Source of the DNA: Microbacterium sp. LWO14-1.2 | Lineage (GTDB): Bacteria > Actinomycetota > Actinomycetes > Actinomycetales > Microbacteriaceae | Assembly: GCF_038397715.1 (NCBI RefSeq) | Contig: NZ_CP151633.1 | Coordinates: 1,922,001 to 1,986,000, forward strand | DNA: 64,000 bases | Reading direction: 5' to 3' | The notes under the pieces: model-generated | The model's input: the letters and a program-made list of their open reading frames with translations, nothing else | Told to the model about the DNA's origin: nothing | The model's database searches: none | In this document: positions 15,215 through 53,819 of the stretch, in pieces | Layout: every line of letters starts with the position of its first letter | Numbering within the stretch: position 1 is the first letter of the stretch | Program-made: the position numbers and the translations under genes

Positions 15215-15287
15215 TTCTGCGGCCTCGGGCATGTTCTGCGGCCGTTCGCGCGCGCAGAGGCCGCAGAAGGTGACGATGGCCGCAGAA
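15215..15287. repeat. four-half-site intergenic repeat, element A (TTCTGCGGCC)
   Basis: TTCTGCGGCC occurs at 15215-15224 and 15234-15243; its reverse complement GGCCGCAGAA occurs at 15259-15268 and 15278-15287. Each pair is exactly 19 bp apart, with different 9-bp spacers. An RNA copy could fold as two 10-bp helices around a 9 by 9 internal loop. It lies between the methyltransferase stop and the LLM oxidoreductase start. Elements B (50915-50995) and C (53747-53819) share the layout with other words. Confidence 0.85.
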
Positions 15288-15330
15288 GTTGCACGGAATA
15301 CCCCGCGGCATCCATGCGTTCGAATACACC

Positions 15331-16386
15331 ATGAAGGCTTTCGGATTCCTCTCCTTCGGCCACTATGCCGATGTGCCGGGTTCGGCGACCCGCACGGCCG
15401 GTGACATGCTCAAGCAGACGATCGAGATCGCGGAGGGCGCAGACGAGCTCGGCGTGAACGGCGCCTCAGTGCGCGTCCACCACTGGGCGCGCCAAGCCGC
15501 GTCCCCCATGCCGGTGCTGGCGGCGATGGCCGCGCGCACCCAGCGCATCGAGGTCGGCACCGGCGTCATCGACATGCGGTACGAGAACCCGTTCCAGTTC
15601 GCCGAGGAGGCCGCGGCCCTCGACCTCATCGCCGACGGACGCATCGCCCTCGGCGTGAGCCGCGGGTCACCCGAGACGGCGCTGCGCGGCTACGAGACCT
15701 TCGGGTTCCACGATGAGGAGGACCCCGAGCGCGGATCGGTGCTCGCCCGCGAGAAGTTCGACCTGTTCCTCCGCGCGATCGACGGCGAGGGGCTCGCACC
15801 GGGCGACCCGCGCATGGTCGGTGCGGGGCGCTACCTGCAGATCGAGCCGCAGTCGCCGACCCTGCGCGATCACATCTGGTGGGGCTCCGGGTCGCGGGCG
15901 ACCGCCGAGGAGACCGGCCGCAAGGGTCTCAACATGATGAGCTCGACCCTCGTCACGGAGGCGACGGGTCAGCCGTTCCACGAGCTGCAGCGCGAGCAGA
16001 TCGACCTCTTCCGCGCGGCGTACAAGGATGCCGGTCACACCGGCGCTCCGCGCGTCTCGGTGAGCCGCAGCGTCTTCCCGCTCGTGTCGGACATGGACCG
16101 GGCGTACTTCGGTCTGCGCAGCGAGGAGAACGCCGACCAGGTCGGCATCATCGACGGATTCCGTTCGACGTTCGGCAAGACCTACGCGGCCGAGCCCGAT
16201 GTGCTCATCGAGCAGCTGAAGGCCGACGAGGCCGTGATGTCGGCCGACACCCTGCTGCTCACGATCCCGAACCAGCTCGGCCCGGCCTACAACCTGCACG
16301 TGCTCGAGGCGTTCGCCGAGCACGTCGCGCCGGCGCTGGGCTGGAAGCCCAACACCGAGGGGCCCGTGCAGGGCGACCCGGTCTGA
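15331..16386 (+). CDS. LLM-class flavin-dependent oxidoreductase
   Basis: 351-residue bacterial luciferase-like monooxygenase (F420 or FMN dependent). It shows the TIM-barrel pattern of the family: an opening KAFGFLSFGHY strand, a VHHWARQAASPMPVLAA helix, IEVGTGVIDMRYENPFQFAEEAA, and LGVSRGSPETALRGYETFG in the phosphate-binding region. Substrate is unknown; many relatives act on alkanes, aldehydes or sulfonates. The start at ATG 15331 matches the first barrel strand. It is convergent with a TetR gene and separated from it by a strong hairpin. Confidence 0.85.
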   Translation: MKAFGFLSFGHYADVPGSATRTAGDMLKQTIEIAEGADELGVNGASVRVHHWARQAASPMPVLAAMAARTQRIEVGTGVIDMRYENPFQFAEEAAALDLIADGRIALGVSRGSPETALRGYETFGFHDEEDPERGSVLAREKFDLFLRAIDGEGLAPGDPRMVGAGRYLQIEPQSPTLRDHIWWGSGSRATAEETGRKGLNMMSSTLVTEATGQPFHELQREQIDLFRAAYKDAGHTGAPRVSVSRSVFPLVSDMDRAYFGLRSEENADQVGIIDGFRSTFGKTYAAEPDVLIEQLKADEAVMSADTLLLTIPNQLGPAYNLHVLEAFAEHVAPALGWKPNTEGPVQGDPV

Positions 16387-16401
16387 GGTCGATCGATGAC
16401 G

Positions 16402-16433
16402 AGAGGGGCGGATGCTGCGGCATCCGCCCCTCT
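16402..16433. terminator. bidirectional hairpin terminator built on GGATGC/GCATCC
   Basis: A perfect 14-bp stem (AGAGGGGCGGATGC with its complement) and a TGCG loop between convergent genes, followed by TTCGTCTT. The inner 18 nt are identical to a hairpin in the ssb-rpsR spacer (52887-52904), and contain the over-used GGATGC word as an inverted pair. Confidence 0.85.
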
Positions 16434-16439
16434 TCGTCT

Positions 16440-17039
16440 TCAGCGCACGGGCGCGGAGGGGAAGGGCACGTCGAACACGGCGTCGACGGCGCGCGCGAGC
16501 GTGGCGGCCTCGTCTTCGAGGTGCGTGCCACGGCGGGGGAGGACTCTCGCGATCGAGAGGCCGTCGACCACCGTGAGCAGGAAGTGGGTGCGGCGCGCGT
16601 TGTCGCCGGCCGTGAGCGCGCCCTCGGCCTCGAGGATCGCCAGCCAGGCGCCGACGCGGCGGGCTGCCTGTGCTTCGAGCACCTCATAGCCGGCCCGCGC
16701 TTCGGGGGTCGCGTCGGGTCCGGCGAACGCCTCGAAGATGCTGAGCCACACATCGCGCGCGGCATCCGGTCCGCCGAACGGCTGGAGCAGGCGGAGGAGG
16801 CATTCGCGCAGACGTTCGCGCGGGGGGACGGAGGTGTCGCGGATCCGCTCGTCGGGCATCGCCGCCTCGTACGTCGCGGTGAGCGCCGCGTTGAGGAGGT
16901 CGCGTTGCGTGGGGAAGTAGTGGCGCAGCGTGCTCGCGCCGCACCCCGCGCGCTTCGCGACCGCCCGCACGCTCAGCCGTTCGCTGCCCTCGCGGATCAT
17001 CTCCGTGGTCGCTTCGAGGATTCGCTCCCTGGTTCCCAT
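16440..17039 (-). CDS. TetR/AcrR-family transcriptional regulator
   Basis: 199-residue repressor. The N-terminal helix-turn-helix is typical (RERILEATTEMIREG, then LSVRAVAKRAGCGASTLRHYF at about residues 23-43, given in part), and the variable C-terminal ligand/dimer domain follows. ATG 17039 is preferred to the GTG one codon upstream. It is divergent from the GPP34 gene with an 81-bp shared region holding a 20-bp imperfect palindrome, so self-repression and control of the GPP34 gene are likely. The ligand is unknown. Confidence 0.88.
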   Translation of the reverse strand: MGTRERILEATTEMIREGSERLSVRAVAKRAGCGASTLRHYFPTQRDLLNAALTATYEAAMPDERIRDTSVPPRERLRECLLRLLQPFGGPDAARDVWLSIFEAFAGPDATPEARAGYEVLEAQAARRVGAWLAILEAEGALTAGDNARRTHFLLTVVDGLSIARVLPRRGTHLEDEAATLARAVDAVFDVPFPSAPVR

Positions 17040-17085
17040 CACTGCCTCCGGAGAAGAGTCTAGACGGTTGGCACAGCGTTCCGGT

Positions 17086-17105
17086 ACACCGTGCTAGTAC
17101 AGTGT
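17086..17105. promoter_or_regulatory. probable TetR operator between TetR and GPP34 genes
   Basis: ACACCGTGCTAGTACAGTGT is an imperfect palindrome (16 of 20 positions symmetric) centred on CTAG, 15 bp before the GPP34 start codon. A -35-like TTGGCA lies upstream at 17068-17073, so a bound repressor would cover the GPP34 promoter. Confidence 0.6.
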
Positions 17106-17120
17106 GCTAACCTGTTGATC

Positions 17121-17816
17121 ATGACCGACGACAGCCTTCACACGCAGCGCACCGGCACCCTTCTCGTGGAAGACGTGCTGCTGGCGCTCTTCGACCCTTC
17201 CTCCGGCACGATCGCCGGAGAGAGCACTCTCTTCTACGTGCTCGGCGGCGCCGTGCTCGCCGATCTCGCGAGCACGGGACACGCCTCGAGTGAGGACGCC
17301 GGCATCCGCGGCGTGCGCATCCGGGCCGAGGGGGACGCGCCAGACGACGCGCTGCTGCGTCCGGCCTGGGACTACATCTCCGAGAAGCCGCGCGAAGTGC
17401 AGGGCGTGCTCGCCGCCATCGGACCGAACCTGCGCGCTCCGCTGCTCGACCGCCTCGTCGAGCGCGGGCACCTCCATCGCTCCGAGCATCGGGCGCTCGG
17501 GGTCTTTCCGACGACGAAGCTCTCCGAGGGCGATACGGGCCGTCGCGCCGAGATCGTCGACGCCATGCGCCGGGCGCTCGTCGACGGCGAGCAGCCCGAA
17601 CCGCGCATCGCCGCCGTGATCGCGCTCGTCTCGGCGAGCGGCGGACTGCCGACCCTGCATCGGGAGATCCCGTGGTCCGGTACTACGGCGACCCGTGCCA
17701 AGGAGATCGAACGCAGCGACTGGGCAGCCGGTGCCGCGGCCGCCGCCGTCACCCGCACCATGATCGCGATCATCACGAACACCCTCGTCGCCACCGCCGT
17801 CATCACGAACCGCTGA
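17121..17816 (+). CDS. GPP34 (Golgi phosphoprotein 3-like) domain protein
   Basis: 231-residue protein of the GPP34 family: early LLVEDVLLALFDPSSGTI, then LFYVLGGAVLADLAS, and the GVFPTTKLSEG region that forms the beta-hairpin in the eukaryotic homologue. GOLPH3 binds phosphatidylinositol-4-phosphate in eukaryotes; bacterial members are frequent in Actinobacteria and have no settled role. ATG 17121 is the only well-placed start. The C-terminal helix (AAAAVTRTMIAIITNTLVA) is moderately hydrophobic. Control by the divergent TetR is likely. Confidence 0.82.
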   Translation: MTDDSLHTQRTGTLLVEDVLLALFDPSSGTIAGESTLFYVLGGAVLADLASTGHASSEDAGIRGVRIRAEGDAPDDALLRPAWDYISEKPREVQGVLAAIGPNLRAPLLDRLVERGHLHRSEHRALGVFPTTKLSEGDTGRRAEIVDAMRRALVDGEQPEPRIAAVIALVSASGGLPTLHREIPWSGTTATRAKEIERSDWAAGAAAAAVTRTMIAIITNTLVATAVITNR

Positions 17817-17904
17817 CCCCGCGGCATCCCGCCCGCTGCGCTCTCGGGTGCAGCGGTGCTCGGGGTGCCCGCCACCAACCACGCACTCACTCCGAGGAGA
17901 GAAC

Positions 17905-18459
17905 ATGAACGTCTTCGAATTCCTGCAGAACCTCGCGTCCGAGGTTCCGCTGCTCATCCAACCGCTGATCGTCGCGCTCGCCGCAGCCATCCCGTTCATC
18001 GAGGGCGAGCTCGCCTCCGTGCTCGGCGTCTGGGCCGGACTCCACCCGGTCGTGGCCGCGCTCGCCGCGGTGACCGGCAACTTCCTGTCGGTTCTGCTCG
18101 TCGTCTTCTTCGGCGCACGGATCCGTGCGGCGATCCTCGCGCGGCGTGCTCGCCGGGCGTCGGCGGTGCCCGTGCCCGCCGGATCGGAGGTCGCCCGAGC
18201 CGAGGCGAACGACCCCGAAACCACGACCGAATCGAAGGGAGTGAAGCGGCTCAAGCGCTTCCTCGTGCGTTTCGGCGTGCCGGGAGCCAGCATCCTCGGT
18301 CCGCTCGCTCTTCCGACGCAGTTCACGGCCGCAGTGCTCGTCTCGACGGGTGTGTCGAAGCAGTGGGTGCTGCTGTGGCAGGCCGTGGCCATCGTGCTGT
18401 GGACGAGCCTCACCACACTCATCGCGACCGGTGTGCTGAGCCTGGTCACAGCCGCCTGA
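17905..18459 (+). CDS. small multidrug export family membrane protein
   Basis: 184 residues with four to five hydrophobic segments: PLLIQPLIVALAAAIPFIEGE at 15-35, VVAALAAVTGNFLSVLLVVFFG, a central charged loop, then a GVPGASILGPLALPTQFTAA re-entrant-like block and a final helix. The two Gly/Pro-rich repeats match the Sm_multidrug_ex family (PF06695), related to DedA proteins. The transport activity implied by the name is poorly established. ATG 17905 is preceded by GAGGAGAG. It follows the GPP34 gene with an 88-bp gap and may share its transcript. Confidence 0.78.
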   Translation: MNVFEFLQNLASEVPLLIQPLIVALAAAIPFIEGELASVLGVWAGLHPVVAALAAVTGNFLSVLLVVFFGARIRAAILARRARRASAVPVPAGSEVARAEANDPETTTESKGVKRLKRFLVRFGVPGASILGPLALPTQFTAAVLVSTGVSKQWVLLWQAVAIVLWTSLTTLIATGVLSLVTAA

Positions 18460-18489
18460 GATCCGCTCTGCCCCACGAAGGTGCATCGG

Positions 18490-18503
18490 TATACTCGAAG
18501 TAT
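18490..18503. promoter_or_regulatory. antitoxin promoter -10 with overlapping operator
   Basis: TATACT at 18490-18495 is a strong -10 box whose expected transcription start falls on the A of the antitoxin ATG at 18502, so the mRNA is probably leaderless. The perfect inverted repeat ATACT-CGA-AGTAT (18491-18503) covers the -10 and the start codon and is a natural site for autorepression. The -35 region is weak. Confidence 0.6.
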
Positions 18504-18735
18504 GACCACGACCATCAAGGTGAGTGACGACCTGCGCGACCGCCTGAAGACGCAGGCCGCCCGCGACGGTCTCACCCTCGGCGCCCATCTCGAGCGCCTC
18601 GCCGATGCGGAGGACCGCCGACGTCGGCTCGCCGCGGTCAAGGATGCCGTCGCGCAGACGTCCTCGGCGGACGCGAGGAGCTATGCCGAGGAGACCGCCG
18701 AGTGGGAGCGGCTCGACCACCCCGCCGCGTCGTGA
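18502..18735 (+). CDS. ribbon-helix-helix antitoxin of a type II toxin-antitoxin pair
   Basis: 77 residues. The N-terminus (MTTTIKVSDDLRDRLKTQA) is a typical ribbon-helix-helix DNA-binding and dimer strand; the acidic C-terminal half (YAEETAEWERLDHPAAS) would wrap the toxin. No ribosome-binding site is visible, in keeping with leaderless translation. The stop overlaps the toxin GTG by 4 bp (GTGA). It probably represses its own promoter through the palindrome at 18491-18503. Confidence 0.82.
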   Translation: MTTTIKVSDDLRDRLKTQAARDGLTLGAHLERLADAEDRRRRLAAVKDAVAQTSSADARSYAEETAEWERLDHPAAS

Positions 18736-19076
18736 CGGAGTTCGAACTCCTACCCGGCGCCGTCGCCTGGGCAAGTCTCGCCCCCGTCCGCGGGCGCGAG
18801 CAGGGTGGGCACCGCCCGGTTCTCCTCGTCGCATCGGCGGGATACCTGGACGCCGTGACGACCCTCGCGATCGCGCTGCCCATCACGACCGTCGATCGGG
18901 GGTGGCCGAACCACGTGCCGGTCGAGGGGCCGAGCGGGCTGGACCGTCTCTCGTGGATCATGACCGAGCAACCGCGCACGCTGTCGCGCGAACGTCTCAC
19001 CGGTGTCGCGGGTTCGGTGAGCCCGCGATGTCTCGCCGAGGTGCGCACCTGGCTGGGAGACTTCCTCGACCTCTGA
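18732..19076 (+). CDS. MazF/PemK-like mRNA interferase toxin
   Basis: 114 residues in the MazF/PemK fold: a first strand LLPGAVAWASLAPVRGREQGG with the catalytic-type arginine and RPVLLVAS, then LPITTVDRGWPNHVPVE, the conserved core before the active-site Ser/Thr strand. MazF toxins cleave mRNA at short sequences; the specificity here is unknown. It starts with GTG overlapping the antitoxin stop, and ends 5 bp from the convergent phospholipase gene, leaving no room for a terminator between them. Confidence 0.83.
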   Translation: MTEFELLPGAVAWASLAPVRGREQGGHRPVLLVASAGYLDAVTTLAIALPITTVDRGWPNHVPVEGPSGLDRLSWIMTEQPRTLSRERLTGVAGSVSPRCLAEVRTWLGDFLDL

Positions 19077-19081
19077 CCGCG

Positions 19082-20839
19082 TCAGGCGCTCTTGGGCGGA
19101 CCGAACAGCTCCTCGCCGTGCTCGTGCAGCAGGCGGTAGGCGTCGGCGAACGTCTTGGGCTCGGGCTCGTCGGGGCGCCCGTACTTCGCGATGAGCAGGC
19201 CCAGCAGTCCGCGGGCCGGCGGAGTGAGCGGCTTCATCTGCGCCTCCGCGCCGTCCTGCGGCGTCCGCTCCTCGGGATTCGGCGGGGTGTACGCCGGCGT
19301 CGTGATGGGCCAGTCGGCCGGATGCCGGGGCTTGTCGAGGTTCACGACGGTGAAAAGCGTGTTCGCCGATTGATCGCGATCGTTCAGGGGCTCCAGACCG
19401 TGCAGGCGCGAGAGCGTGGCGGTGACGGATCCGTGATGCATCTCGTCGTGGATGATCGTGTTGCGCTTCGTGTAGGCCGACACCGCGATGGCCGGCACGC
19501 GGCATCCGAGGCGGTCGAACGTGAAGTCCATCTCGCCGGGACCCGTATCCTTCGTCGGCTTCGTGGCCGCGGGCGGCGGCACGTGGTCATATGTCCCGCC
19601 GTGCTCGTCGAAGGTGATGAGCAGCAGCGTGTTGACGGCGTTCGACCCCTTCGGGGACGCGCTCGTGCGGATCGCCTCGTAGATGTCGTGGATCAGCCGA
19701 TCGCCCGCTCTGACGTCGGAGATGGCGCTGTCGAACACCTCGCGCCCGTCGACCTCGCCCTCGCGGGGGGACCCGAAGGGCGGGTGGAAGTCGTTGTGGT
19801 CGTAGACCATGCGCGGTTCGATGAAGGCGTACGCGGGCAGGGTGCCGTTCTTCGCGTCGGCGTAGAAGTCCTCCATCGTTCCGAAGTGCTCGGTGCGCCA
19901 GTACTTCTCCAGCACGGCGACGTGCAGCATCCCCGTGTACGAGACGAGCTGCAGCTTGTCGATGTAGATCTTCCAGCTGACGTCCTTGTCCTCCAGGCGG
20001 TTGAACACCGTGGGGGCCGCCGGAGCCGACAACCACTTGCCGAAGCCCGCTCCGCCCTGGTTGGTGACGAACCCGTGCGAGGTCGAGGCGTGGAAGAAGG
20101 AGCGGTTGCAGAAGGTCTGCGACGGGACCCCGGCGAACCAGTGGTCGAACACGGCGAACTCTGTCGCGAGAGTCGACAGCACCGGCAGCATCTCGGGAGA
20201 GAACGACCCCATGATGTGCGCCGCTTCGGCGGGCTGGGGAGGCTCGCCCTGCCGCAGACGGCGGAAGTTGATGATGTAGTCCTCGAGGAACCCCGACATC
20301 GTGGCCTTCTCGCCGTGCGTCGGGGCGTTGAACGGAGCGGTCATCTGCTCGGCGAAGAGATCGGCGTTCCCCTTCGGGTCGACCGTGCCGAAGATCTGCG
20401 TGTTGACGTGCGGGTACTCCTCGCCCGGATCCGGGTCGGGGTAGCTCATGATCCGGTCGGTGTCACCGGTGTAGATGTGGGCGTCGACGACGGTGCCGTC
20501 GGATGCGGTGTTGCTGTGCTTCCCGAAGGCGAGGCCCTCGAAGGTCTCGCCCTTCGGAAGGTTCTCTGCCGTGTAGAGATAGCCGAGCAGGTTGTCGAAC
20601 GAGCGGTTCTCACCCATCACGACGACGAGATGGTCGAACCCGGGTTCGCTGCGAGGCGTGAGTGCGGAGAACGGGTCGGGATCGGCGGCGAACCCGTCCC
20701 TCGGGCCGCCGGCGACGCTCGCGCCGATCGCCGCACCGCCCGCGCCGCCGACGACGGCACCCGCGAGAGCCGCCCCTCCCATCTTCAGGAAACCGCGCCG
20801 GGAGGTGTCGCCGGGGCCCTGCTTCTCGTCTGCCGTCAC
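19082..20839 (-). CDS. Tat-exported phospholipase C / acid phosphatase family protein
   Basis: 585 residues. A twin-arginine signal (SRRGFLKMGGAALAGAV, Arg 14-15) is followed by the alkaline-phosphatase-like fold of bacterial phospholipases C and AcpA. The catalytic opening is FDHLVVVMGENRSFDNLLG, and metal ligands are expected around FAVFDHWFAGVPSQT and ITFDEHGGTYDHVPPP. These enzymes hydrolyse phospholipids or phosphate esters outside the cell. GTG 20839 gives a correctly placed Tat signal. It is downstream of, and codirectional with, the metallophosphoesterase gene, so both may scavenge phosphate. Confidence 0.88.
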   Translation of the reverse strand: MTADEKQGPGDTSRRGFLKMGGAALAGAVVGGAGGAAIGASVAGGPRDGFAADPDPFSALTPRSEPGFDHLVVVMGENRSFDNLLGYLYTAENLPKGETFEGLAFGKHSNTASDGTVVDAHIYTGDTDRIMSYPDPDPGEEYPHVNTQIFGTVDPKGNADLFAEQMTAPFNAPTHGEKATMSGFLEDYIINFRRLRQGEPPQPAEAAHIMGSFSPEMLPVLSTLATEFAVFDHWFAGVPSQTFCNRSFFHASTSHGFVTNQGGAGFGKWLSAPAAPTVFNRLEDKDVSWKIYIDKLQLVSYTGMLHVAVLEKYWRTEHFGTMEDFYADAKNGTLPAYAFIEPRMVYDHNDFHPPFGSPREGEVDGREVFDSAISDVRAGDRLIHDIYEAIRTSASPKGSNAVNTLLLITFDEHGGTYDHVPPPAATKPTKDTGPGEMDFTFDRLGCRVPAIAVSAYTKRNTIIHDEMHHGSVTATLSRLHGLEPLNDRDQSANTLFTVVNLDKPRHPADWPITTPAYTPPNPEERTPQDGAEAQMKPLTPPARGLLGLLIAKYGRPDEPEPKTFADAYRLLHEHGEELFGPPKSA

Positions 20840-20906
20840 GAGGCCGATCCTAGGCTCCCTGCCGCGCGGGCGCACCCGCTCTCGGCACGGCGGGGCTGCG
20901 ACGACG

Positions 20907-20940
20907 GAGGGCGCCGCCGGGGTGACCCGACGACGCCCTC
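20907..20940 (-). terminator. possible terminator after the metallophosphoesterase gene
   Basis: GAGGGCG (20907-20913) pairs with CGCCCTC (20934-20940), with an inner GGGTGACCC hairpin, 15 bp past the stop codon on the minus strand. No U-tract. Confidence 0.45.
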
Positions 20941-20955
20941 AGGGGGTTGCCGCGA

Positions 20956-23493: not shown

Positions 23494-23635
23494 GGGTGTC
23501 CTTCGTGGGGTGGGGTGTTCCGTGCTCAGCCGCACGGGGCCCGACCAGCCCATCGGAGCGGGATGACGGCGGGTTGACGCCGAGGCGACGGGGAGGTGAA
23601 CGACGGCATCCACCCGCTCTCAGTAGGGTGAAGGC

Positions 23636-23929
23636 ATGAGCTACGCGGGGGATTCGTCGATCGGTGCACGGGTGCGAGCGGTCGAGAAGGAGTACGCGGC
23701 GAAGCAGACGCGTCTGTTCGTGACGTTCGCCCTCGTCGAGGGACCCGTCCTGCTGCTGGGCGTCGTGCTGATCTACGGCCTGAAGGTCATCGATCCCGAG
23801 ATCGGCGTCTGGTTCCTCATGGGTGTGGCGCTGGTCGGCGGCTTCGTGCTGAGCGCCCTGCTGCTGCGCCTCATCCGGACGAGAGCCGCGGCGGTGGCGC
23901 AGGCGAAGGGCGAGAACCCTCTCTTCTGA
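23636..23929 (+). CDS. small two-helix membrane protein, function unknown
   Basis: 97 residues. A charged N-terminus is followed by two hydrophobic helices (FVTFALVEGPVLLLGVVLIYG near 29-49, in part, and WFLMGVALVGGFVLSALLL near 59-77), with a basic C-terminus. No family recognised. It is divergent from the metallophosphoesterase gene and 70 bp upstream of pcnA, where mycobacteria have other genes. Confidence 0.6.
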   Translation: MSYAGDSSIGARVRAVEKEYAAKQTRLFVTFALVEGPVLLLGVVLIYGLKVIDPEIGVWFLMGVALVGGFVLSALLLRLIRTRAAAVAQAKGENPLF

Positions 23930-23999
23930 GGCCCTGTCCTGACGTCGGCGTCGGTCTGCGTTTTCCAGGCCCCGGAGGCCGCCGAGTACGCTGGAACCC

Positions 24000-25427: not shown

Positions 25428-25544
25428 CCCGCCGCTCGCTTGCAGGACCGGGAGCTGCATCCGCGTCCGCGAACACTCCTGACACACCACCCGCACAACC
25501 CGTATCGCCCGCGACACCCGGCTCGTACACTGAGACCACCCGCG

Positions 25545-26885: not shown

Positions 26886-26900
26886 CGGTTCGCCGGGCAC

Positions 26901-42111: not shown

Positions 42112-42145
42112 GCGGGGCTCCTCTGAGACGGACGGCGTTCTTCGG

Positions 42146-42193: not shown

Positions 42194-42274
42194 AAAGCGA
42201 TTTCCGAGCCGCCGACGACGGCGGATCAGACGACGAGAACCGGCGCAGATGCCGGAAGAGGGAGCCCACCCGTG

Positions 42275-44131: not shown

Positions 44132-44205
44132 TCGCCCACCGCCGTCCGGCGCATCCTGCCGCCGACACACACCAGGGCTGACGCCCGCTCAATGAGGAGA
44201 CACCC

Positions 44206-45516: not shown

Positions 45517-45577
45517 CCGTCTCGCATCCCCCTGCCGCACGGCCGTGGCGCCCGGCTGCAGGAGAAAGGAACATCCC

Positions 45578-46519: not shown

Positions 46520-47436
46520 CCAGGGCGATCACGCAGACCGAACTCATCACGACCGACCCCTCCGGACCGCGCGCCCGCGGCGAGGCGAGCGGGTTGCGCT
46601 GGCGTCGCGGCGCGCGCACGGCGGTGTTCCACGTGCTCACGCTCGCGGTGCTCGTCGTCATCCTCTACCCGGCGGTGTGGATGGTGATGTCGTCCTTCAA
46701 ACCGGGGAACGAGATCATCGGCTCGGTGAGCCTCGTGCCGGAGTCCTTCTCGTTCGACAACTACGCGAAGGCGCTCTCCGGCATCGGCGGCGTCTCGTTC
46801 TGGACGTTCGTGGTGAACTCGCTCATCCTCGCGGTGGCCTCGGTCGTCGGCGTGGTGCTGTCGTGCTCGATCACGGCGTACGCGTTCGCGCGCATCCGAT
46901 TCGGCGGCAGCAAGCTCTTCTTCCTCTGCATGATCGCGACGATGCTCCTGCCGTTCCACGTCGTGATCATCCCGCAGTACATCGTGTTCAACCAGCTCGA
47001 CATGATCAACACCTACTGGCCGCTGCTGCTGGGCAAGTTCCTCGCCGCCGACGCGTTCTTCGTGTTCCTCATGATCCAGTTCATCCGGGGTCTCCCGCGC
47101 GATCTCGACGAGGCGGCGCGCATCGACGGCGCGGGGCACGTGCGCACCTTCACGGCCGTGATCCTGCCGCTCATGAAGCCCGCGCTCGTGACGAGCTCGA
47201 TCTTCGCGTTCATCTGGTCGTGGAACGACTTCTTCGGTCCGCTGCTGTACCTGAAGGACCCGGGCATGTACACGATGCCGCTCGCGCTGCGGCTCTACGT
47301 CGACCAGACGTCGACGAGCGATTACGGAGCCCAGATGGCCATGGCGATCCTCGCGCTACTCCCCGTGGTGCTGTTCTTCCTCGCGTTCCAGCGCTACCTG
47401 GTGTCGGGCGTCGCGACCGAGGGACTCAAGGGATGA
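46516..47436 (+). CDS. sugar ABC transporter permease, MalG/UgpE type
   Basis: 306 residues, six helices; the opening VILYPAVWMVMSSFKPGNEI and the EAA loop LDEAARIDGAGHVRTFTAVI mark the MalG subfamily. Its partner is the preceding permease. 4-bp overlaps on both sides. Confidence 0.93.
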   Translation: MTRAITQTELITTDPSGPRARGEASGLRWRRGARTAVFHVLTLAVLVVILYPAVWMVMSSFKPGNEIIGSVSLVPESFSFDNYAKALSGIGGVSFWTFVVNSLILAVASVVGVVLSCSITAYAFARIRFGGSKLFFLCMIATMLLPFHVVIIPQYIVFNQLDMINTYWPLLLGKFLAADAFFVFLMIQFIRGLPRDLDEAARIDGAGHVRTFTAVILPLMKPALVTSSIFAFIWSWNDFFGPLLYLKDPGMYTMPLALRLYVDQTSTSDYGAQMAMAILALLPVVLFFLAFQRYLVSGVATEGLKG

Positions 47437-48107
47437 CCGCCGACAGGGGCACGGCGATGCGGACCGAGACCCGGCGCGTGTTCGGCGGCTCGTGGGTCGC
47501 GGCCTTCGGCGAGATGCTCGTCATCGGGCTCGCCGTTACGCTCATGTCGCTTCCGCTCCTGACTCTCGTCCCCGCGTTCGCGGCGGGTGCGCGGCACTTC
47601 CGTGCGCACCTCGACGACGAGCCGGATGCCGTGCGGCTGCTCGCGTTGCGCGGCGTGCAGGCCGTGCGCTCCGGGTGGTGGTTCGGCGCGGCATCCGCTC
47701 TCGTGATCGGCCTCCTCGTCGTGAACGCGCTCGGCGCCGCGCAGGGACAGCTGCCCGGCGGCATCCCGTTCGCGATCGTCAGCGGAGGGCTGGCAGCGCT
47801 CGTCGCGGTCGCCGTGCTGCGCACCGCAGCTCTCTGGACACCGGAGGCGCGCTGGGGCGATCTCTGGCGACAGGGCCGCGGACTCGCGATCGACGATCCG
47901 ATCGGCAGCGCGCTGGTGCTCGCCGGGATCGGCGTGAGCGCGGTCGTCGTCTGGATGCTGCCGCCGTTGGTCGTGATCGCCCCCGGTCTCATCGTCGTGG
48001 CGCTCGTCGCCGCGGAACGCCGCCGCACGGCGGGTTCCCCCACGCCGTCGTCCGTCTCATCGTCGTCCGTCTCATCGTCGTCCGTCTCATCGAAGGGAAA
48101 CGCATGA
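47433..48107 (+). CDS. DUF624-like membrane protein with serine-repeat tail
   Basis: 224 residues with four to five helices (GEMLVIGLAVTLMSLPLLTL, ASALVIGLLVVNALGAA, and a C-terminal pair). This resembles the YesL/DUF624 proteins often encoded in sugar ABC operons, role unknown. The tail ends in three tandem SSVSS units written by a 15-bp direct repeat (48048-48092). Coupled to both neighbours by 4-bp overlaps. Confidence 0.72.
   Translation: MTADRGTAMRTETRRVFGGSWVAAFGEMLVIGLAVTLMSLPLLTLVPAFAAGARHFRAHLDDEPDAVRLLALRGVQAVRSGWWFGAASALVIGLLVVNALGAAQGQLPGGIPFAIVSGGLAALVAVAVLRTAALWTPEARWGDLWRQGRGLAIDDPIGSALVLAGIGVSAVVVWMLPPLVVIAPGLIVVALVAAERRRTAGSPTPSSVSSSSVSSSSVSSKGNA
48048..48092. repeat. three tandem 15-bp repeats in a coding tail
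   Basis: TCGTCCGTCTCATCG occurs three times head to tail at the 3' end of the DUF624-like gene. The 15-bp unit keeps the frame, so copy-number change would lengthen the serine tail without a frameshift. Confidence 0.9.
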
Positions 48108-49213
48108 CCACCCATCCACCGGCCGTCCGCGTCGGGATCATCGGCACCGGCGGCATCGCGCACGCGCACGCCGCGGCGATCGCCGACCTCACGGGCGAGA
48201 TGGAGCTCGTGGTCGTCGCCGACATCGACGCCGACCGGGCCACCGCCTTCGCCGCGCAGTACGGAGCGACGGCGGTGACGGATGCCGAGGAACTGCTCGC
48301 CGTCGAGGGACTCGGCCTCGTCCACATCTGCACGCCTCCGGGAACGCACGCGCCCCTGGCGATCGCCGCCATGCGCGCCGGCGTGCCGGCGCTGGTCGAG
48401 AAGCCCACGGCGCTGAGCCTCGCCGAGCTCGACGAGATCGCGCGCGTCGAGGCGGAGGCGGGCGTGCCGACGCTCACCGTGTTCCAGCATCGGTTCGGCC
48501 CCGCGGCCGTGCACCTGCGACGCATGATCGACGACGGCGACCTCGGGCGTGCGCTCGTCGCGACGTGCGAGACCCTCTGGTACCGCGACGACGAGTACTT
48601 CGCCGTGCCGTGGCGCGGACGGTGGGAGGTCGAGGGCGGCGGCCCCACCATGGGTCACGGCATCCACCAGTTCGATCTGCTGCTCTCGCTGCTCGGCCCG
48701 TGGGCCGAGGTCACCGCGATCGCCGCGCGGCAGACCCGCCCGACCGACACCGAGGACGTGTCGGCCGCGCTCGTGCGCTTCGAGAGCGGTGCGGTCGCGA
48801 CCGTCGTGAACTCCCTCGTGTCGCCGCACGAGACCTCGCGCCTGCGCCTCGACTTCGAGCACGCGTCGGTCGAGCTCCGGCACGTGTACGGCTACACGAC
48901 CGACGACTGGACCTTCACGCCCGCCCCCGGCCACGAGGAACTGGCCGAGCGCTGGGCCGCCGGACCGTCGGCCGCGCGGGCCAGCGCGCACCGCGATCAG
49001 TTCGCCGCGCTCGCCGCGGCGCTGCGCGAGGGCGGCACACCGCCGGTTGCGCTGTCGGACGCCCGGCGGACGCTCGAGTTCGCCGCAGCGACGTACGCCT
49101 CGGCCTTCCGCGGCGAGGCGGTCGCGGCAGGCCGGATCGTCGACGGCGACCCGTTCCACACCTCGATGAGCGGCGGGCTGGTGCCCTGGCCGCCGCGGAA
49201 GGAGAAGGCATGA
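48104..49213 (+). CDS. Gfo/Idh/MocA-family sugar dehydrogenase
   Basis: 369 residues. The N-terminal Rossmann fold has VGIIGTGGIAHAHAAAI; the EKP motif (ALVEKPTALS) carries the conserved lysine, and HGIHQFDLLLSLLG supplies the catalytic histidine region. NAD(P)-dependent oxidation of a sugar or sugar acid from the imported glycan is likely. 4-bp overlaps on both sides. Confidence 0.9.
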   Translation: MTTHPPAVRVGIIGTGGIAHAHAAAIADLTGEMELVVVADIDADRATAFAAQYGATAVTDAEELLAVEGLGLVHICTPPGTHAPLAIAAMRAGVPALVEKPTALSLAELDEIARVEAEAGVPTLTVFQHRFGPAAVHLRRMIDDGDLGRALVATCETLWYRDDEYFAVPWRGRWEVEGGGPTMGHGIHQFDLLLSLLGPWAEVTAIAARQTRPTDTEDVSAALVRFESGAVATVVNSLVSPHETSRLRLDFEHASVELRHVYGYTTDDWTFTPAPGHEELAERWAAGPSAARASAHRDQFAALAAALREGGTPPVALSDARRTLEFAAATYASAFRGEAVAAGRIVDGDPFHTSMSGGLVPWPPRKEKA

Positions 49214-50139
49214 CCGAGGCGTTCCCGGCGAGCCAGGCGTTCCAGGCGATCCACGACATCGGCCGCAGCGTGACCGTGCGCGACGGGGAGATCGAGCTGT
49301 TCCGGTACACCTACGCCCCCGACCACCCGCAGCTCGAGTCGCCGCGGCCGTACCTGCATCCGCTCCGCACCCGTGGCGGCGACCTCGTGAGCCTGTACCG
49401 TCCGCACGACCACGTGTGGCACAAGGGCATCTCCTGGGCGCTGCCGGTCATCGACGACGAGAACTTCTGGGGTGGCTGGTCGTACGTGCACGGGCAGGGG
49501 TACGTATCGCTGCCGAACAACGGCGAGCAGCGTGCGATGGGCGAGGTCGCGGTCACGGTGGGGGAGGCCGTGACCATCGCGCACGAGCTGCAGTGGATCA
49601 CCCAGGCGGGCGAGCACTGGTTCGACGAGAGGCGCGTGCTGACCGCGGCGCCGGTCTCGGAGACCGCGTGGGCCCTGAGCTTCGAGACGAGGATGACCAA
49701 CGTGCGGGGGAGCGCCGTCTCCTTCGGGTCGCCGACCACGAGGGGGCGGGAGAACGCCGGCTACGGCGGCCTCTTCTGGCGCGGACCGCGGTCGTTCACG
49801 GGCGGCACCCTCGTCGCGCCGGGTGTGCAGGGGCGCGACGAGCTCCGAGGGCAGCGGCACGAGTGGATGGGGTTCGCCGGGCGGCACGACGGTGTCGACC
49901 GTTCGTCGCTGCTGCTCATGCTCGACGACGACCGCAACCCGCATCATCCACCGCAGTGGTTCGCGCGCTCCGACGAGTTCGCGGCCCTCAACCCCGCTCC
50001 GTTCTTCAGCGAGGAGACGGTGGTCGCGGCGGGGGACACCCTGCACCACCGCTACGGTGTCGGGGTCGCCGACGGCACGGTCGACGACGCCGCAGGGCTC
50101 GCGGATGCCGTGCGCGACCTGGTCCGGAGCGCGGGATGA
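49210..50139 (+). CDS. DUF6807 (PmoA-like) protein
   Basis: 309 residues, beta-rich with several histidines (YLHPLRTRGGDLVSLYRPHD, VWHKGISWALPVI, VQGRDELRGQRHEWMGFAG). It matches the DUF6807/PmoA family, frequently found beside Gfo/Idh/MocA dehydrogenases in plant-glycan and sugar-acid loci. Despite the name, the family is not methane monooxygenase. Its exact reaction is unknown to me. Coupled by 4 bp at both ends. Confidence 0.82.
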   Translation: MTEAFPASQAFQAIHDIGRSVTVRDGEIELFRYTYAPDHPQLESPRPYLHPLRTRGGDLVSLYRPHDHVWHKGISWALPVIDDENFWGGWSYVHGQGYVSLPNNGEQRAMGEVAVTVGEAVTIAHELQWITQAGEHWFDERRVLTAAPVSETAWALSFETRMTNVRGSAVSFGSPTTRGRENAGYGGLFWRGPRSFTGGTLVAPGVQGRDELRGQRHEWMGFAGRHDGVDRSSLLLMLDDDRNPHHPPQWFARSDEFAALNPAPFFSEETVVAAGDTLHHRYGVGVADGTVDDAAGLADAVRDLVRSAG

Positions 50140-50852
50140 CGTCGGCCTCGACGTTCCCCGGGGGCATCGGGGTCTCGGAGCTCGCGGTCTACGACACCGC
50201 CGCCGTCGACGGACTCAGCGGCGGGAGCCCGCACATGCATCTCGTGTCGACCGAGGCCTACGCCGTGATCGGCGGGCGCGGCGCGCTGCAGACGATCGAC
50301 GCGACGGGATTCCGGGAGACGCCGCTGTCGTCGGGATCGGTGGTCTGGTTCACGCCGGGCACCATCCATCGAGCGATCAACGACGGCGAGCTGCGGGTCA
50401 TGGTGCTCATGAGCAACGCCGGTCTGCCGGAGGCGGGGGATGCCGTGATGACGTTCCCGCCCGAGCACCTGGTGGATGCCGAGACCTATGCCGCAGCGGC
50501 GTCTCTCGACGGGCCGGGCGGGACGGCAGAGCGGGGGCAGCGCGCGGAACGGAGGCGAGACCTCGCGGTGCAGGGGTTCCTGCGGCTGCGGGATGCCGTG
50601 CGCGACGGCCGTCTGGAGGAGCTGCGCGCCTTCTACGCGGCGGCGGGGGCGCTGGTCCGCGACGCCAGTGCGGAGTGGGGGGCGCTCGTGGAGGAGGGGC
50701 CGCTCGCCCAGGCGCGCCGCAGTCTCGACCTGGCCGGCCGGGTGGCGGAGGGTGACGTGAGCCATCTGGCCCTCGCGTCCGTGACTGCGGCGCCGGAGCG
50801 CGCGGCGGAGGCGGCCTTCGGGATGTGCGGGCGACTGCATCCGCGTCTCTGA
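50136..50852 (+). CDS. cupin-domain protein at the end of the glycan operon
   Basis: 238 residues. The cupin barrel carries HMHLVSTEAYAVIGGRG (motif 1, with His and Glu ligands) and SGSVVWFTPGTIHRAIN (motif 2). A C-terminal helical domain (LRLRDAVRDGRLEELRAFYA) follows. Possibly an isomerase or a sugar-binding regulator; not determinable. The last gene of the LacI-controlled operon. Confidence 0.8.
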   Translation: MTSASTFPGGIGVSELAVYDTAAVDGLSGGSPHMHLVSTEAYAVIGGRGALQTIDATGFRETPLSSGSVVWFTPGTIHRAINDGELRVMVLMSNAGLPEAGDAVMTFPPEHLVDAETYAAAASLDGPGGTAERGQRAERRRDLAVQGFLRLRDAVRDGRLEELRAFYAAAGALVRDASAEWGALVEEGPLAQARRSLDLAGRVAEGDVSHLALASVTAAPERAAEAAFGMCGRLHPRL

Positions 50853-50860
50853 GCGGGTTC

Positions 50861-50911
50861 CGCACGCGGCATCCGCTCGCACGCGTCATCCGCTCGCGCG
50901 CGGCATCCGCC
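50861..50911. repeat. three 17-bp tandem repeats
   Basis: CGCACGCGGCATCCGCT and two variants at 50861, 50878 and 50895, just past the cupin stop; each carries GGCATCCGC or GTCATCCGC. They run directly into element B. Confidence 0.82.
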
Positions 50912-50914
50912 CGC

Positions 50915-50995
50915 ACGCAGCGAAGGAGATCGCACGCATTGCAGGACCCGACACGACGGATGCTCCTTCGCAGCGTGCGATCTCCTTCGCAGCGT
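50915..50995. repeat. four-half-site intergenic repeat, element B
   Basis: ACGCAGCGAAGGAG (50915) and a 10-of-14 copy at 50934 are 19 bp apart; the inverted CTCCTTCGCAGCGT occurs exactly at 50963 and 50982, again 19 bp apart. The outer copies extend to an 18-bp perfect inverted repeat (50920-50937 with 50973-50990). Located between convergent genes; same layout as elements A and C. Confidence 0.82.
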
Positions 50996-51019
50996 CACCG
51001 CGGATACAGCGAAGTGGGC

Positions 51020-51035
51020 CGGGGCATCAGCCCCG
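51020..51035 (-). terminator. hairpin after the lipoprotein gene
   Basis: CGGGGC-ATCA-GCCCCG, 31 bp past the minus-strand lipoprotein stop. No U-tract. Confidence 0.5.
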
Positions 51036-51065
51036 ACCCGCTCGGTTCCGCGTCCGATCAGACGA

Positions 51066-51770
51066 TCAGAGCGGTGCGACGATGTCCTGCTTCACGTCCC
51101 ACTCGGTGATCTCTTGAACGCTCTCGAGCTTCTGCCCCTGGACCTCGGTGGAGCCCGTGGCCGCGAGTGCGACGTAGTCCTTCGTGAGTTCGAAGACCAT
51201 GTTGACGGTCGTGCCCTGCTCTTCGGTCGTTCCCGACACCAGGTACACGTCCTGGCCGAGACGCGTGCTCTTCCCGGTGACGGTGTACTCGCCGCTCAGC
51301 GACGCCGCGACACCCATCGGGTCGGCCGGGTCGGTGGCCTTCGCCGCCGTGCTCAGCGTCGACACCATCTGGTCGCTCGACGCCGGATCGGCGACCTGCC
51401 ATTCGCCGTCCGTGGTCTTCACCCACGCATCGTCTCCGATGGCGATGATCGACCCGAAGGTCGTCGTGGTCTCGAGAGCCTCATCGCCCGGGTTGAACTT
51501 GGTGGTCGATTCCATCCCGAGCGTCGTCATCTTCGCGGCGAAGCCCTCCGACGCCAGCATGGCTGCGGAGACGCACTCCGCCAGCGTGGCTCCGTCGACG
51601 GTCGCACCCTCGGTGAGCTCCGGGCAGTCGGATGCGGGAGCGGTGCTCTCCTCCGCGGCGGGCGTGGACGACGCGGTGTCGTCCTTCGGCTCGTCCGCGG
51701 GTGCGGAACAGCCGGTGAGCAGGATGGCGGCGGCCAGGACGATGCCGGCCCCGATCTTGTTGACGCGCAT
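51066..51770 (-). CDS. secreted lipoprotein, function unknown
   Basis: 234 residues; lipobox LLTGC with Cys 21, then a Ser/Thr/Glu/Pro-rich linker and a folded domain ([60 protein letters not shown]). The layout resembles the LppX/LprG or DUF6612-like lipoproteins, but I cannot assign a family firmly. It is divergent from rpsF, with about 230 bp between starts. Confidence 0.75.
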
Positions 51771-51920
51771 GCGCGTTCCCCCTTCGGTCGTCTGTGGGCG
51801 CTGACGATCAGCACGCACCCCACCAGCATGCCAGGCCGGTCCCGACCGGGTGGGAGCAGTTCAGAGGAAACTCCGCTAGACTGACGAGGTTGTCTGCCCT
51901 CAGGCGCCCATTCGGATGCC

Positions 51921-51984
51921 CGGACGGACGACGTGCTACACACCCTCCTGCTTCCGGGAAAGTCCCGGAAGCCGTTCTAGTCCG
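51921..51984 (+). promoter_or_regulatory. probable S6:S18-binding leader of rpsF
   Basis: A perfect hairpin GCTTCCGGGA-AAG-TCCCGGAAGC (51950-51972) sits inside an outer CGGAC/GTCCG pairing (51925-51929 with 51980-51984). The 3' internal loop holds CCG. This layout, a closing stem, a loop with CCG and an apical hairpin directly before rpsF, matches the known S6:S18 mRNA motif by which the ribosomal proteins repress their own operon. The exact secondary structure was drawn by eye. Confidence 0.55.
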
Positions 51985-51998
51985 AAGGAGGTGGGTAA

Positions 51999-52367
51999 GT
52001 GACGCACCAGTACGAACTCATGGTCATTCTGACCCCCGAGATCGACGAGCGCCAGGTCGCTCCTACGCTCGACAAGTTCCTGAAGGTCATCACCAACGAT
52101 GGTGGCTCGATCGAGAACGTCGACGTCTGGGGCAAGCGCCGTTTCGCGTACGAGATCCAGAAGAAGACCGAGGGCATCTACGCCGTCGTCAACTTCACCG
52201 CGACCAGCGAGGCCACGCAGGAGCTCGACCGTCAGCTCAAGCTGAACGAGCAGATCATGCGCACCAAGGTGCTGCGCGCCGAGGAAGCTCAGGCGATGAT
52301 CGCTTCCGAGGCCAAGCGTGCCGAGGAGAAGGCTGCTCGCAAGTCCGCCAAGGCAGCGAAGGCGTAA
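51999..52367 (+). CDS. rpsF: 30S ribosomal protein bS6
   Basis: 122 residues ([38 protein letters not shown]), with the basic Ala/Lys tail common in actinobacteria. It starts at GTG behind a near-perfect AAGGAGGTG. S6 binds S18 on the small subunit. First gene of rpsF-ssb-rpsR-rplI, with the autoregulatory leader just upstream. Confidence 0.97.
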
Positions 52368-52372
52368 GTCTC

Positions 52373-52876
52373 ATGGCCGGCGAAACAGTCATCACCGTGG
52401 TGGGAAACCTCACGGCCGACCCCGAACTGCGCTACACGCAGAACGGACTGCCGGTGGCGAACTTCACCATCGCGTCGACCCCGCGCAACTTCGACCGTCA
52501 GGCGAACGAGTGGAAGGACGGCGAAGCGCTGTTCCTCCGCGCGTCGGTCTGGCGCGAGTTCGCCGAGCACGTGGCGGGTTCGCTGACCAAGGGCATGCGC
52601 GTCATCGCGCAGGGCCGTCTGCGTCAGCGCTCCTACCAGGACCGTGAGGGCAACCAGCGCACCGCGATCGAGCTGGAGGTCGATGAGATCGGCCCCTCGC
52701 TCCGGTACGCGACCGCGCAGGTCACCCGTGCGGCGTCGAACGGTGGTGGCGGCGGCGGACAGTCCCGTCCCGCCCAGCAGCAGGTGTCGGAGGAGCCGTG
52801 GTCCACGCCCGGCTCGTCGACCAGCGCCGATGCCTGGAGCACTCCGGGCAGCTTCGGCGACGACACCCCCTTCTGA
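52373..52876 (+). CDS. ssb: single-stranded DNA-binding protein
   Basis: 167 residues. OB-fold core ([40 protein letters not shown]), a Gly-rich linker (GGGGGG near residue 125) and the acidic C-terminal tip DDTPF that recruits replication and repair proteins. Placed 5 bp after rpsF. Confidence 0.96.
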
Positions 52877-52886
52877 AACAGATCTC

Positions 52887-52904
52887 CGGATGCTGCGGCA
52901 TCCG
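52887..52904. terminator. CGGATGC hairpin in the ssb-rpsR spacer
   Basis: CGGATGC-TGCG-GCATCCG, identical in all 18 nt to the core of the terminator at 16402-16433. In mid-operon it may attenuate or protect mRNA ends. Confidence 0.55.
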
Positions 52905-52925
52905 TCTCATAACTAAGGAAAACCA

Positions 52926-53180
52926 ATGGCTGGAAAGTCGAGCGGCGACCGCCGCAAGCCGCGGAAGGGCGCGAAGAACGCCGCTCCCGCGAAGTCGATC
53001 CGGGTCGGTGTCATCGATTACAAGGATGTCTCCACCCTTCGCAAGTTCATCTCGGAGCGTGGAAAGATCCGCGCCCGTCGTATCACCGGTGTCTCCGTGC
53101 AGGAGCAGCGTCTGATCGCTCGCGCGATCAAGAACGCTCGCGAGATGGCTCTCCTGCCCTACGCCGGCGCTGGCCGCTGA
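52926..53180 (+). CDS. rpsR: 30S ribosomal protein bS18
   Basis: 84 residues ([40 protein letters not shown]). It has no CxxC zinc motif, so it is a zinc-independent S18. TAAGGAAAACC precedes the ATG. With S6 it is a likely ligand of the rpsF leader. Confidence 0.97.
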
Positions 53181-53191
53181 GGGGTACCGAC

Positions 53192-53644
53192 ATGGCAAAG
53201 CTGATTCTCACGAACGAGGTCGCCGGGCTCGGAAGCGCCGGTGACGTGGTCGAGGTCAAGAACGGGTACGCCCGCAACTACCTCATCCCCCAGGGCTTCG
53301 CTACGGCGTGGACCCGCGGTGGCGAAAAGCAGGTCGCTTCGATCCAGGCTGCTCGTCAGGCTCGCGCGATCCACGACCGCGACGAGGCCGTGGCGCTGAA
53401 GAACTCGATCGAAGACACCAAGGTCCGCCTGGCTGTCAAGGCCGGTAACGAGGGTCGTCTCTTCGGTTCGGTCAAGACCGCCGATGTCGCCGACGCTGTC
53501 GCGGCCGCCGGTCTCGGTTCGATCGACAAGCGCAAGGTGCACATCACCTCCGCGATCAAGTCGGTCGGCGAGCACGAGGCCACCGTCCGTCTGCACGACG
53601 ACGTGACCGCTGTCATCACCCTGCAGGTCGTCGCCGCCAAGTAA
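53192..53644 (+). CDS. rplI: 50S ribosomal protein bL9
   Basis: 150 residues; N-terminal domain [36 protein letters not shown], a long connecting helix and the C-terminal domain ([18 protein letters not shown]). Last gene of the operon; a strong terminator follows. Confidence 0.97.
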
Positions 53645-53658
53645 GCGACGTCTTCGCG

Positions 53659-53694
53659 AGAACGCCCTCTGTCCCTCGGGACAGGGGGCGTTCT
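53659..53694 (+). terminator. rplI operon terminator
   Basis: AGAACGCCCTCTGTCCC pairs with GGGACAGGGGGCGTTCT (one G-T wobble) around a two-base loop, followed by GCATTC. Confidence 0.88.
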
Positions 53695-53746
53695 GCATTC
53701 CCGCCCATGCCGTCCCGCCCCCGCCCCCGTCCCCGTCCCCCGCCGA

Positions 53747-53819
53747 GACCCACCTTCCGCGTCGAGGCCCACCAACCGCGACGTGTGGGGTGGTGGGTCT
53801 GGGCGGGGGTGGTGGGTTT
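53747..53819. repeat. four-half-site intergenic repeat, element C (ACCCACC)
   Basis: GACCCACCTTCCGCG (53747) and GGCCCACCAACCGCG (53766) are 19 bp apart; GGGGTGGTGGGTCT (53787) and GGGGTGGTGGGTTT (53806) are 19 bp apart and carry the inverted core GGTGGGT. The nearest copies form AGACCCACC/GGTGGGTCT (53746-53754 with 53792-53800). Confidence 0.82.

Follow-up and report, generated by a model that had tools for sequence, protein, structure and literature searches.

In the present study, we analyzed a stretch of 64,000 nucleotides from the genome of Microbacterium sp. LWO14-1.2 (NZ_CP151633.1, positions 1,922,001 to 1,986,000; hereafter the window, with its own coordinates), in which an initial annotation had pointed to three intergenic elements, A, B and C. 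These elements are single copies of dispersed families built on one plan (word-spacer-word, a loop, and inverted word-spacer-word), and in this 3.78-Mb genome each of the families A, B and C, as well as a fourth family D, has one gene that carries elements of its own family on both sides. The three elements are probably solo copies of the recognition elements of three paralogous nuclease genes located elsewhere in the chromosome, with binding, cutting and mobility of the nuclease on these elements being predicted.

Elements A, B and C and their families

The copies read in the window are as follows (coordinates, strand, feature).

15215..15287, no strand, element A (family TTCTGCGGCC), 73 bp, geometry 10-9-10-15-10-9-10
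15215..15224, +, A word 1, exact copy
15234..15243, +, A word 2, exact copy, 19 bp from A word 1
15259..15268, -, A word 3, inverted exact copy
15278..15287, -, A word 4, inverted exact copy, 19 bp from A word 3
50915..50995, no strand, element B (family core CGAAGGA), 81 bp
50915..50928, -, B copy 1, reverse complement of CTCCTTCGCAGCGT
50934..50947, -, B copy 2, diverged, 10/14 matching
50963..50976, +, B copy 3, exact over 14 bp
50982..50995, +, B copy 4, exact over 14 bp, 19 bp from B copy 3
53748..53817, no strand, element C (family core ACCCACC), 19 bp in each pair
53748..53754, +, C word 1, ACCCACC
53767..53773, +, C word 2, GCCCACC, one base off
53792..53798, -, C word 3, GGTGGGT, inverted
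53811..53817, -, C word 4, GGTGGGT, inverted

Re-reading of the coordinates confirmed that the three elements combine unrelated words with a common 19-bp spacing within pairs. The four-copy architecture ascribed to all of them is exact in A, where 4/4 words (TTCTGCGGCC / GGCCGCAGAA) are perfect; it also stands in B, both of whose pairs are 19 bp apart, the left one included, but with the diverged copy 2, and in C, but with the altered word 2. All three lie outside genes, as had been stated: A between codirectional genes, starting 2 bases past a stop codon, and B and C each between convergent genes. Orthologs of all three are present in P30 and SZ1, those of B with a majority of copies reading CGCAGGA / TGCAGGA and those of C with identical spacing. 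Tandem repeats directly adjoin two of the elements, with a ~17-bp unit at B (50861-50918) and an 18-bp unit at C (53827-53862). An Rfam search of the window at gathering scores gave no match.

A search of the kind proposed by the initial annotation, for four-copy layouts with any word, was carried out in samples of five genomes with 8-base words, at most one mismatch and all spacings of 10-40, and period 19 was dominant. In 464 kb of this genome, 16/24 layouts fell at spacing 19 (6/16 from the 2/20 stretches, at 1.48 and 3.57 Mb, that had been placed at known copies, and 2 from the window) and no other spacing gave more than 4, the four at spacing 36 lying within one tandem repeat of locus L110. 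Genome G005 (400 kb) gave 5 layouts at 19, 2 at 18 and none elsewhere, with 3/5 coming from the 3/20 stretches (2.42, 2.74 and 3.62 Mb) placed at known copies; genome G007 (400 kb), sampled on an even grid, gave 8 at 19, 1 at 18 and none elsewhere; P30 (300 kb) gave 8 at 19 and 0 at the other spacings of 12-30; and SZ1 (100 kb, one stretch placed at a known copy) gave 3 at 19 and 1 at 12. When the left and right spacings were left free, the combination (19,19) still ranked first, with 16/91 layouts in this genome, 5/29 in G005 and 8/56 in G007, and five first-order Markov simulations of each of these samples gave 0 layouts at (19,19); random sequence thus does not yield such layouts as often.

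Family A occupies 16 places in this genome (A pair pattern with at most 3 mismatches, two isolated 3-mismatch matches at 1616819 and 3644450 being excluded), and its pair pattern gives 17/17 matches on the two strands versus 2/1 for the reversed control. Family B has 8 places by BLAST, and families C and D (word GAGCCACCCC), counted by eye among the matches listed, have at least about 22 and at least about 24. An element with a further word, TTCTCGGA (family E), lies from L101:3787 onward (~1.524 Mb of this genome), where no gene was noticed alongside; its word is similar to the one adjoining the nuclease of genome G035. Copies of families A, C and D among the matches listed span 0.73-2.87 Mb of the chromosome, the exceptions being the D gene and its elements at 3.57 Mb and one of the isolated 3-mismatch A matches at 3.64 Mb.

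The words are conserved and the sequence between them is not. In the species-genome collection, the exact A pattern occurred in 75 stretches, 69 of which lie in nine Microbacterium genomes, and among 81 distinct A elements (at most 2 mismatches per word) 74 are spaced 19-15-19, five have a loop of 16, one has a loop of 14 and one has a 20-bp pair, i.e., the spacing does not vary widely among homologous elements. The conserved site is approximately cAAC-TTCTGCGGCC-aT, with no fixed sequence in the spacers or the 15-base loop. Across 48 ortholog pairs of A elements, which share species and hence are not independent, the words differ at 83/1920 positions (4%), compared with 352/864 in the spacers and 314/720 in the loops (41-44%); in arms guarded against fetching bias, the figures are 53/940 for words versus 173/423 for spacers. 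The other-species loci had been fetched for the exact A pair, which inflates the presence counts (103 present, 18 absent). Covariation between the arms, which the initial annotation had wished to see checked, was found in one part of the element and not in another: the loop ends pair at 2.49/5 positions within an element versus 2.11/5 between elements, a value reached in 0/2000 shuffles, and the spacer pairing of A elements is not above chance (912/2000 shuffles equal or exceed it). Since the loop ends covary, the hairpin may matter for the inner part of the element.

Nuclease genes bracketed by their own elements

The genes found between elements of families A, B and C are the following (genome coordinates).

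842666-843511, +, A gene, AbiEi-like winged helix fused to an EDxHD/Vsr-type nuclease
2106080-2106901, +, B gene, AbiEi-like winged helix fused to an EDxHD/Vsr-type nuclease
2833273-2834253, +, C gene, distant relative of the A-type

The A gene lies between two A elements at one locus in this genome, SZ1, H83, P30 and SA39. The D gene encodes a product of 340 residues and is bracketed by two D elements 1.1 kb apart; its protein is a paralog (48% identity) of that of the C gene, which is bracketed by C elements. The C gene and the D gene have in common a leader stretch like CTGCACAAA...CCCTCCACATCG, located between the element and the start codon (L085, upstream of 1687; L111, upstream of 5825, minus strand). 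One more family of this genome, F (TCTCGCAG), has elements on both sides of a homolog of the A nuclease split over two reading frames (G000:C1:1513454-1514270, locus L229), and its enzyme may have been lost recently.

The A product gave Pfam matches to the nuclease families PF18741/PF04480 and an AbiEi_4 match below the cut-off, the A-type protein of SZ1 reached PF18741 (MTES_1575) above the cut-off (2.4e-10), and the B protein gave a PADLOC AbiEi match (8.2e-7). In the model of the A protein (predicted local distance difference test score, pLDDT, 91.6; predicted template modelling score, pTM, 0.75), the N-terminal part matches AbiEi 6y8q in a fold search, and the C-terminal part matches the homing endonuclease I-Bth0305I 3r3p (template modelling score, TM-score, 0.80) and ngo0050 3hrl; a profile match of the nuclease domain to I-Bth0305I (E 4.4e-5) agrees with the fold. 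An AbiEi fold with a winged-helix DNA-binding domain is predicted accordingly by the A model and the PADLOC match of B. TnsA, also considered as a fold match of the A nuclease, was insignificant (E 0.39). E181, D207, Q217, D219 and D237 are invariant in 29 proteins. The A nuclease, judged by its sequences, is under purifying selection: the ratio of nonsynonymous to synonymous substitutions (dN/dS) is 0.09-0.24 and no stops occur in seven species (21 pairs, with dS >1 in many of them). In Pfam, the C protein has an AbiEi_4 match below threshold and the D protein none, and an hhalign comparison of the two with the A-type profile gave a probability of 95 and E 3e-8. For each of the three window elements, the chromosome thus has a gene bracketed by elements of the same family.

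The arrangement recurs in other members of the family. A-type homologs are present in 95/99 congeneric genomes, and flanks were scored in the best 30 of the longer homolog lists (A-type, one per genome). Around these A-type genes, 25/30 upstream and 27/29 testable downstream flanks score at least 30 of 36 at period 19; 29/30 genes do so on at least one side, versus 2/150 random pieces, and 33 spacing-19 layouts lie within 300 bp of the 30 genes, where 0.6 would be expected from 1.2 Mb of controls, the control stretches of these tests themselves containing real elements. The upstream elements mostly end ~95-130 bp before the start codon. Of the best 30 B-type homologs, 28/30 have one flank or both scoring 30 or higher at period 18 or 19; the score is here the best of four spacings, and the random-piece null applies to the A-type genes. 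In the 3-kb loci of all 15 DUF559 genes of three genomes, a layout at 18 or 19 was found for 7/15. Six words occur there: A (twice), TCTCGCAG, the B word and, at period 18, ATCAGGC, GAACAGG and CGGAGGA. In a survey of the order (149 genomes, 102 with a homolog, own genus included; 29/30 loci scanned for flanks, with L302, which repeats the A gene, left out), layouts adjoin homologs of the own genus and, outside it, of a single further genus in the family (G148 on one side, G118 on both). A genome holds up to ten family matches, whose words differ.

Words vary by gene, and close relatives have one in common. In 32 genes that score at least 31 on both sides, the upstream and downstream spacings are equal in 32/32, word similarity is 0.83 between the two sides of one gene versus 0.40 between genes, and the own partner word ranks first in 24/32 and among the top three in 30/32. 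(This comparison required words scoring at least 31; it excluded the DUF559 loci L227, L232, L233, L234, L236, L239, L240 and L241, where there is no layout at 19, and L229, whose gene is broken, while L228/L243, L231/L272 and L235/L242 each denote one gene.) Over 55 genes, protein identity correlates with word similarity (r=0.29; 0/2000 permutations), and on a tree of 42 genes, which score at least 31 on both sides with equal spacing or at least 33 on one side, the period changes 3 times versus 7.5 in shuffles (0/500 as low).

From such pairing, the presence of a word should be predictable from that of its gene. This held for TTCTGAAGG, which among the scanned genes adjoins only those of G042 and G069: in 99 genomes, there were 9/9 pairs in G042 and 7/6 in G069, single matches elsewhere (two in G033, one in this genome) and none in the other 95, so the word is abundant in exactly the two genomes expected. 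For A the prediction held partly. A pairs were counted as 13/16 in this genome (G000), 12/15 in G005, 7/9 in G066, 6/2 in G022 (degenerate) and 4/4 in G083, with single matches in six more genomes and none in 88, and an A nuclease of at least 70% identity was found only in G000 and G005. In G066, which we take to be Microbacterium sp. K24, two contigs (L168 and L184) begin at the two bracketing A elements, and the nuclease gene consequently falls into an assembly gap; short-read assemblies may lose bracketed nuclease genes in this way. The B element has BLAST matches in 8/99 genomes; the closest B nucleases belong to G075 and G092, which are two of these 8, followed by those of G033, G004 and G096, which are not.

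Placement of the elements and alternative explanations

By approximate gene calls, 42 elements of this genome are located between codirectional genes (17), convergent genes (16) or divergent genes (1), inside predicted reading frames (7) or at an edge (1), and the majority are within 70 bp of a gene 3' end. Two genes beside the window elements are outside the system:

13680..15212, +, neighbour of A, methyltransferase-domain protein (PF23186 DUF7059, PF05175 MTS)
53192..53644, +, neighbour of C, ribosomal protein L9 gene (rplI)

The place downstream of rplI is occupied by a C element in this genome, in P30 and in SZ1 and by an A element in SA39, and H83 has neither there, which means that an element was gained or exchanged in at least one lineage. 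(Also downstream of rplI in the window, at 54048-55970 on the minus strand, is the gene of a protein in which five ChpA-C, chaplin-type, stretches occur.) For one of the B elements of this genome there is no counterpart in P30, and some B elements have switched word nearly whole between species, own copies reading CGAAGGA (3/4) and SZ1 copies TGCAGGA (4/4). EST19A, which is without the gene at the A locus, has there a near-exact element and apparently a second, degenerate one. At the B locus, SZ1 retains a remnant only; P30 has one element and a hydrolase gene in place of the nuclease, and no B nuclease was found in 300 kb around the syntenic place.

In the mechanism we propose, one protomer would sit on each word, read through the predicted winged helix, two protomers would stand in tandem on each arm at a fixed 18/19-bp step, and the two mirrored arms would assemble four protomers, possibly on an extruded hairpin. 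Nicking or cutting at the element would then make or keep the solo copies, and the same action would maintain the enzyme's own bracketed gene. The solo copies sit mostly just past gene 3' ends. The inverted repeats in the promoters of AbiEi and Rv2827c are reported to be bound by these proteins themselves (PMC7319586), and for I-Bth0305I dimerisation is reported on a target nearly 60 bp long (PMC3943268), which fits four words spread over ~73 bp. Proteins of one family that keep to one geometry but differ in their words would explain a common spacing without a common sequence. The reading of the initial annotation is partly supported: one process lies behind the shared spacing, and a family of paired-site DNA-binding proteins, one of its three guesses, fits the paralogous AbiEi-like/EDxHD nuclease genes, each of which is bracketed by words of its own.

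Four other explanations were weighed against this one. Homing, i.e., a gene drive in which the nuclease cuts the element on a chromosome lacking the gene and repair of the break brings in a copy of the gene, guided by homology to the bracketing elements, seems to us unlikely. The solo elements would then be targets, or scars of recombination between brackets comparable to solo long terminal repeats, and the element would not be a passenger. The resemblance of the nuclease domain to I-Bth0305I in fold and profile, the long target of that dimeric enzyme, and the element-gene-element state seen here at the A and B loci versus a single element without nuclease gene elsewhere all agree with such a process; however, 8 to ~24 copies per gene at unrelated places exceed the need for targets. 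A homing gene normally destroys its own target, and here the gene is flanked by two elements and the words of solo sites are strongly conserved. Somewhat more improbable is a host regulator, for which the upstream element would be an operator, the dispersed elements a regulon or chromosome-organising sites, and the nuclease domain secondary. The promoter binding of AbiEi and Rv2827c, the position of the upstream elements before the start codon and the conserved words of solo sites would suit a regulator, but not the second element after the stop codon, the single element between divergent genes when most follow gene 3' ends, the invariance of E181, D207, Q217 and D219, or the up to ten family matches per genome with different words.

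Two explanations without a dedicated enzyme, both close to suggestions of the initial annotation, fared worse. That the elements are RNA hairpins, acting as terminators or mRNA stabilisers downstream of genes, is very improbable: the predicted folds are strong (-54.8, -51.7 and -64.0 kcal/mol), the elements follow gene 3' ends and the loop ends covary, but a hairpin has no need of the same word twice per arm, spacer pairing is not above chance, and the pairing with nuclease genes is left unexplained. An RNA fold with an internal loop is thus not upheld as the main principle, and an intrinsic terminator was rejected, as 0/75 A elements have at least 6 T in the 14 bases after either arm. For replication slippage or template switching as the origin of the layouts we see almost no probability. 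Template switching could have left the excess of pairing at the loop ends as its signature, but one word recurs at many unlinked loci (16 places for A) and is conserved between species while the spacers drift, and simulations give no layout at period 19; slippage is refuted as the main cause by the unlinked recurrence and the conservation of the word.

Several observations weigh against recognition elements of bracketed nucleases. No A elements of this genome are near copies of each other outside the words (best 22/33), so that recent spread is not seen and the elements look like old copies kept by selection. No target-site duplication, such as a miniature inverted-repeat element (MITE) of a DDE transposon would have at its precise ends, and no clean empty site was found at six junctions inspected, where the length differences are ~50-190 bp with ragged edges or remnants, and the hydrolase gene at the B locus of P30 means that this comparison is not one of clean presence and absence. 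Elements are missing from 8/15 DUF559 genes of the three genomes and, among the best 30, from 1/30 A-type (G061) and 2/30 B-type (G062, G051) genes; some flank scores near 30 may be due to chance, and in 2/32 genes the two sides have no common word. The A elements of G083 and the degenerate ones of G022 occur without a close A nuclease, which shows that the pairing is not strictly one to one. None of the 23 homologs from seven other families scores 30 on both sides at 18 or 19, and their best of eleven spacings are scattered over 14-24, with G208 reaching 31 and 30 at 21. Finally, the C/D protein model is poor (pLDDT 42).

Relation to known systems and significance

The arrangement resembles that of repetitive extragenic palindromic (REP) doublets forming hairpins (REPINs) and their REP-associated tyrosine transposases (RAYTs): the enzyme gene is flanked by its own repeats, copies are dispersed as mostly extragenic palindromes, several word families occur per genome, and, as in REPINs (compare PMC3116915), the intervening sequence is conserved in length and pairing and not in letters. 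By analogy, the system would work like REPIN-RAYT, from which the logic of a cognate gene with dispersed palindromes is already known, with an unrelated enzyme. This enzyme is AbiEi-like with an EDxHD/Vsr-type nuclease, whereas RAYT is an HUH Y1 transposase, and the arms hold two tandem non-palindromic words 18/19 bp apart instead of one REP. RAYT itself was rejected as the enzyme of the elements, because PF01797 gave 0 matches in G000, the same search being positive in 5/14 control genomes. The GTAG or CGTC foot that is a feature of REP repeats (PMC3733652) was not seen when the words of A, B and C were inspected by eye together with their near flanks.

Other known proteins share parts of the system. 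The EDxHD homing endonuclease I-Bth0305I resembles it in the fold of the catalytic domain, a separate DNA-binding part and a long target; in contrast, the present proteins are free-standing chromosomal paralogs with an AbiEi-like N-terminus, whose genes multi-copy palindromes bracket. AbiEi antitoxins of type IV toxin-antitoxin systems have the winged helix and the N-terminal fold in common with them and bind inverted repeats, whereas here a nuclease domain is fused and the elements are genome-wide. The Vsr-type restriction endonuclease MTES_1575 (PF18741) is matched above the Pfam cut-off by the SZ1 protein; the available excerpt of PMC3710099 describes this domain in a ~2000-residue HEPN/helicase protein and does not mention repeats. 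In open-access PMC full text, which leaves aside subscription papers and preprints, no link of DUF559, MTES_1575 or AbiEi-nuclease genes to palindromic repeats appeared among the matches listed. What we describe looks like an undescribed gene-and-repeat system: in its enzyme and its repeat foot it departs from defining features of REP/REPIN-RAYT, the word geometry differs, and no such pairing appeared among the papers listed. The chances seem to us evenly balanced that it represents a new class, namely a large AbiEi-EDxHD nuclease family in Microbacteriaceae with several paralogs per genome, each with its own ~10-bp word and a four-protomer geometry, copying or preserving its gene together with solo hairpins.

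If this is true, a DNA partner would be known for large families of unexplained proteins (DUF559/MTES_1575-type with an AbiEi-like part), and an enzyme for a class of intergenic palindromes that had none. It would also point to a second origin, by unrelated chemistry, of the REPIN-RAYT lifestyle, in which short palindromes persist with one cognate enzyme. Moreover, as word and protein co-evolve, the family would hold a natural code of protein-DNA recognition, and since many paralogs carry their word beside the gene, the protein and the word that it would recognise can be read in pairs from the sequence, which makes such a recognition code, and how it evolves, directly testable.

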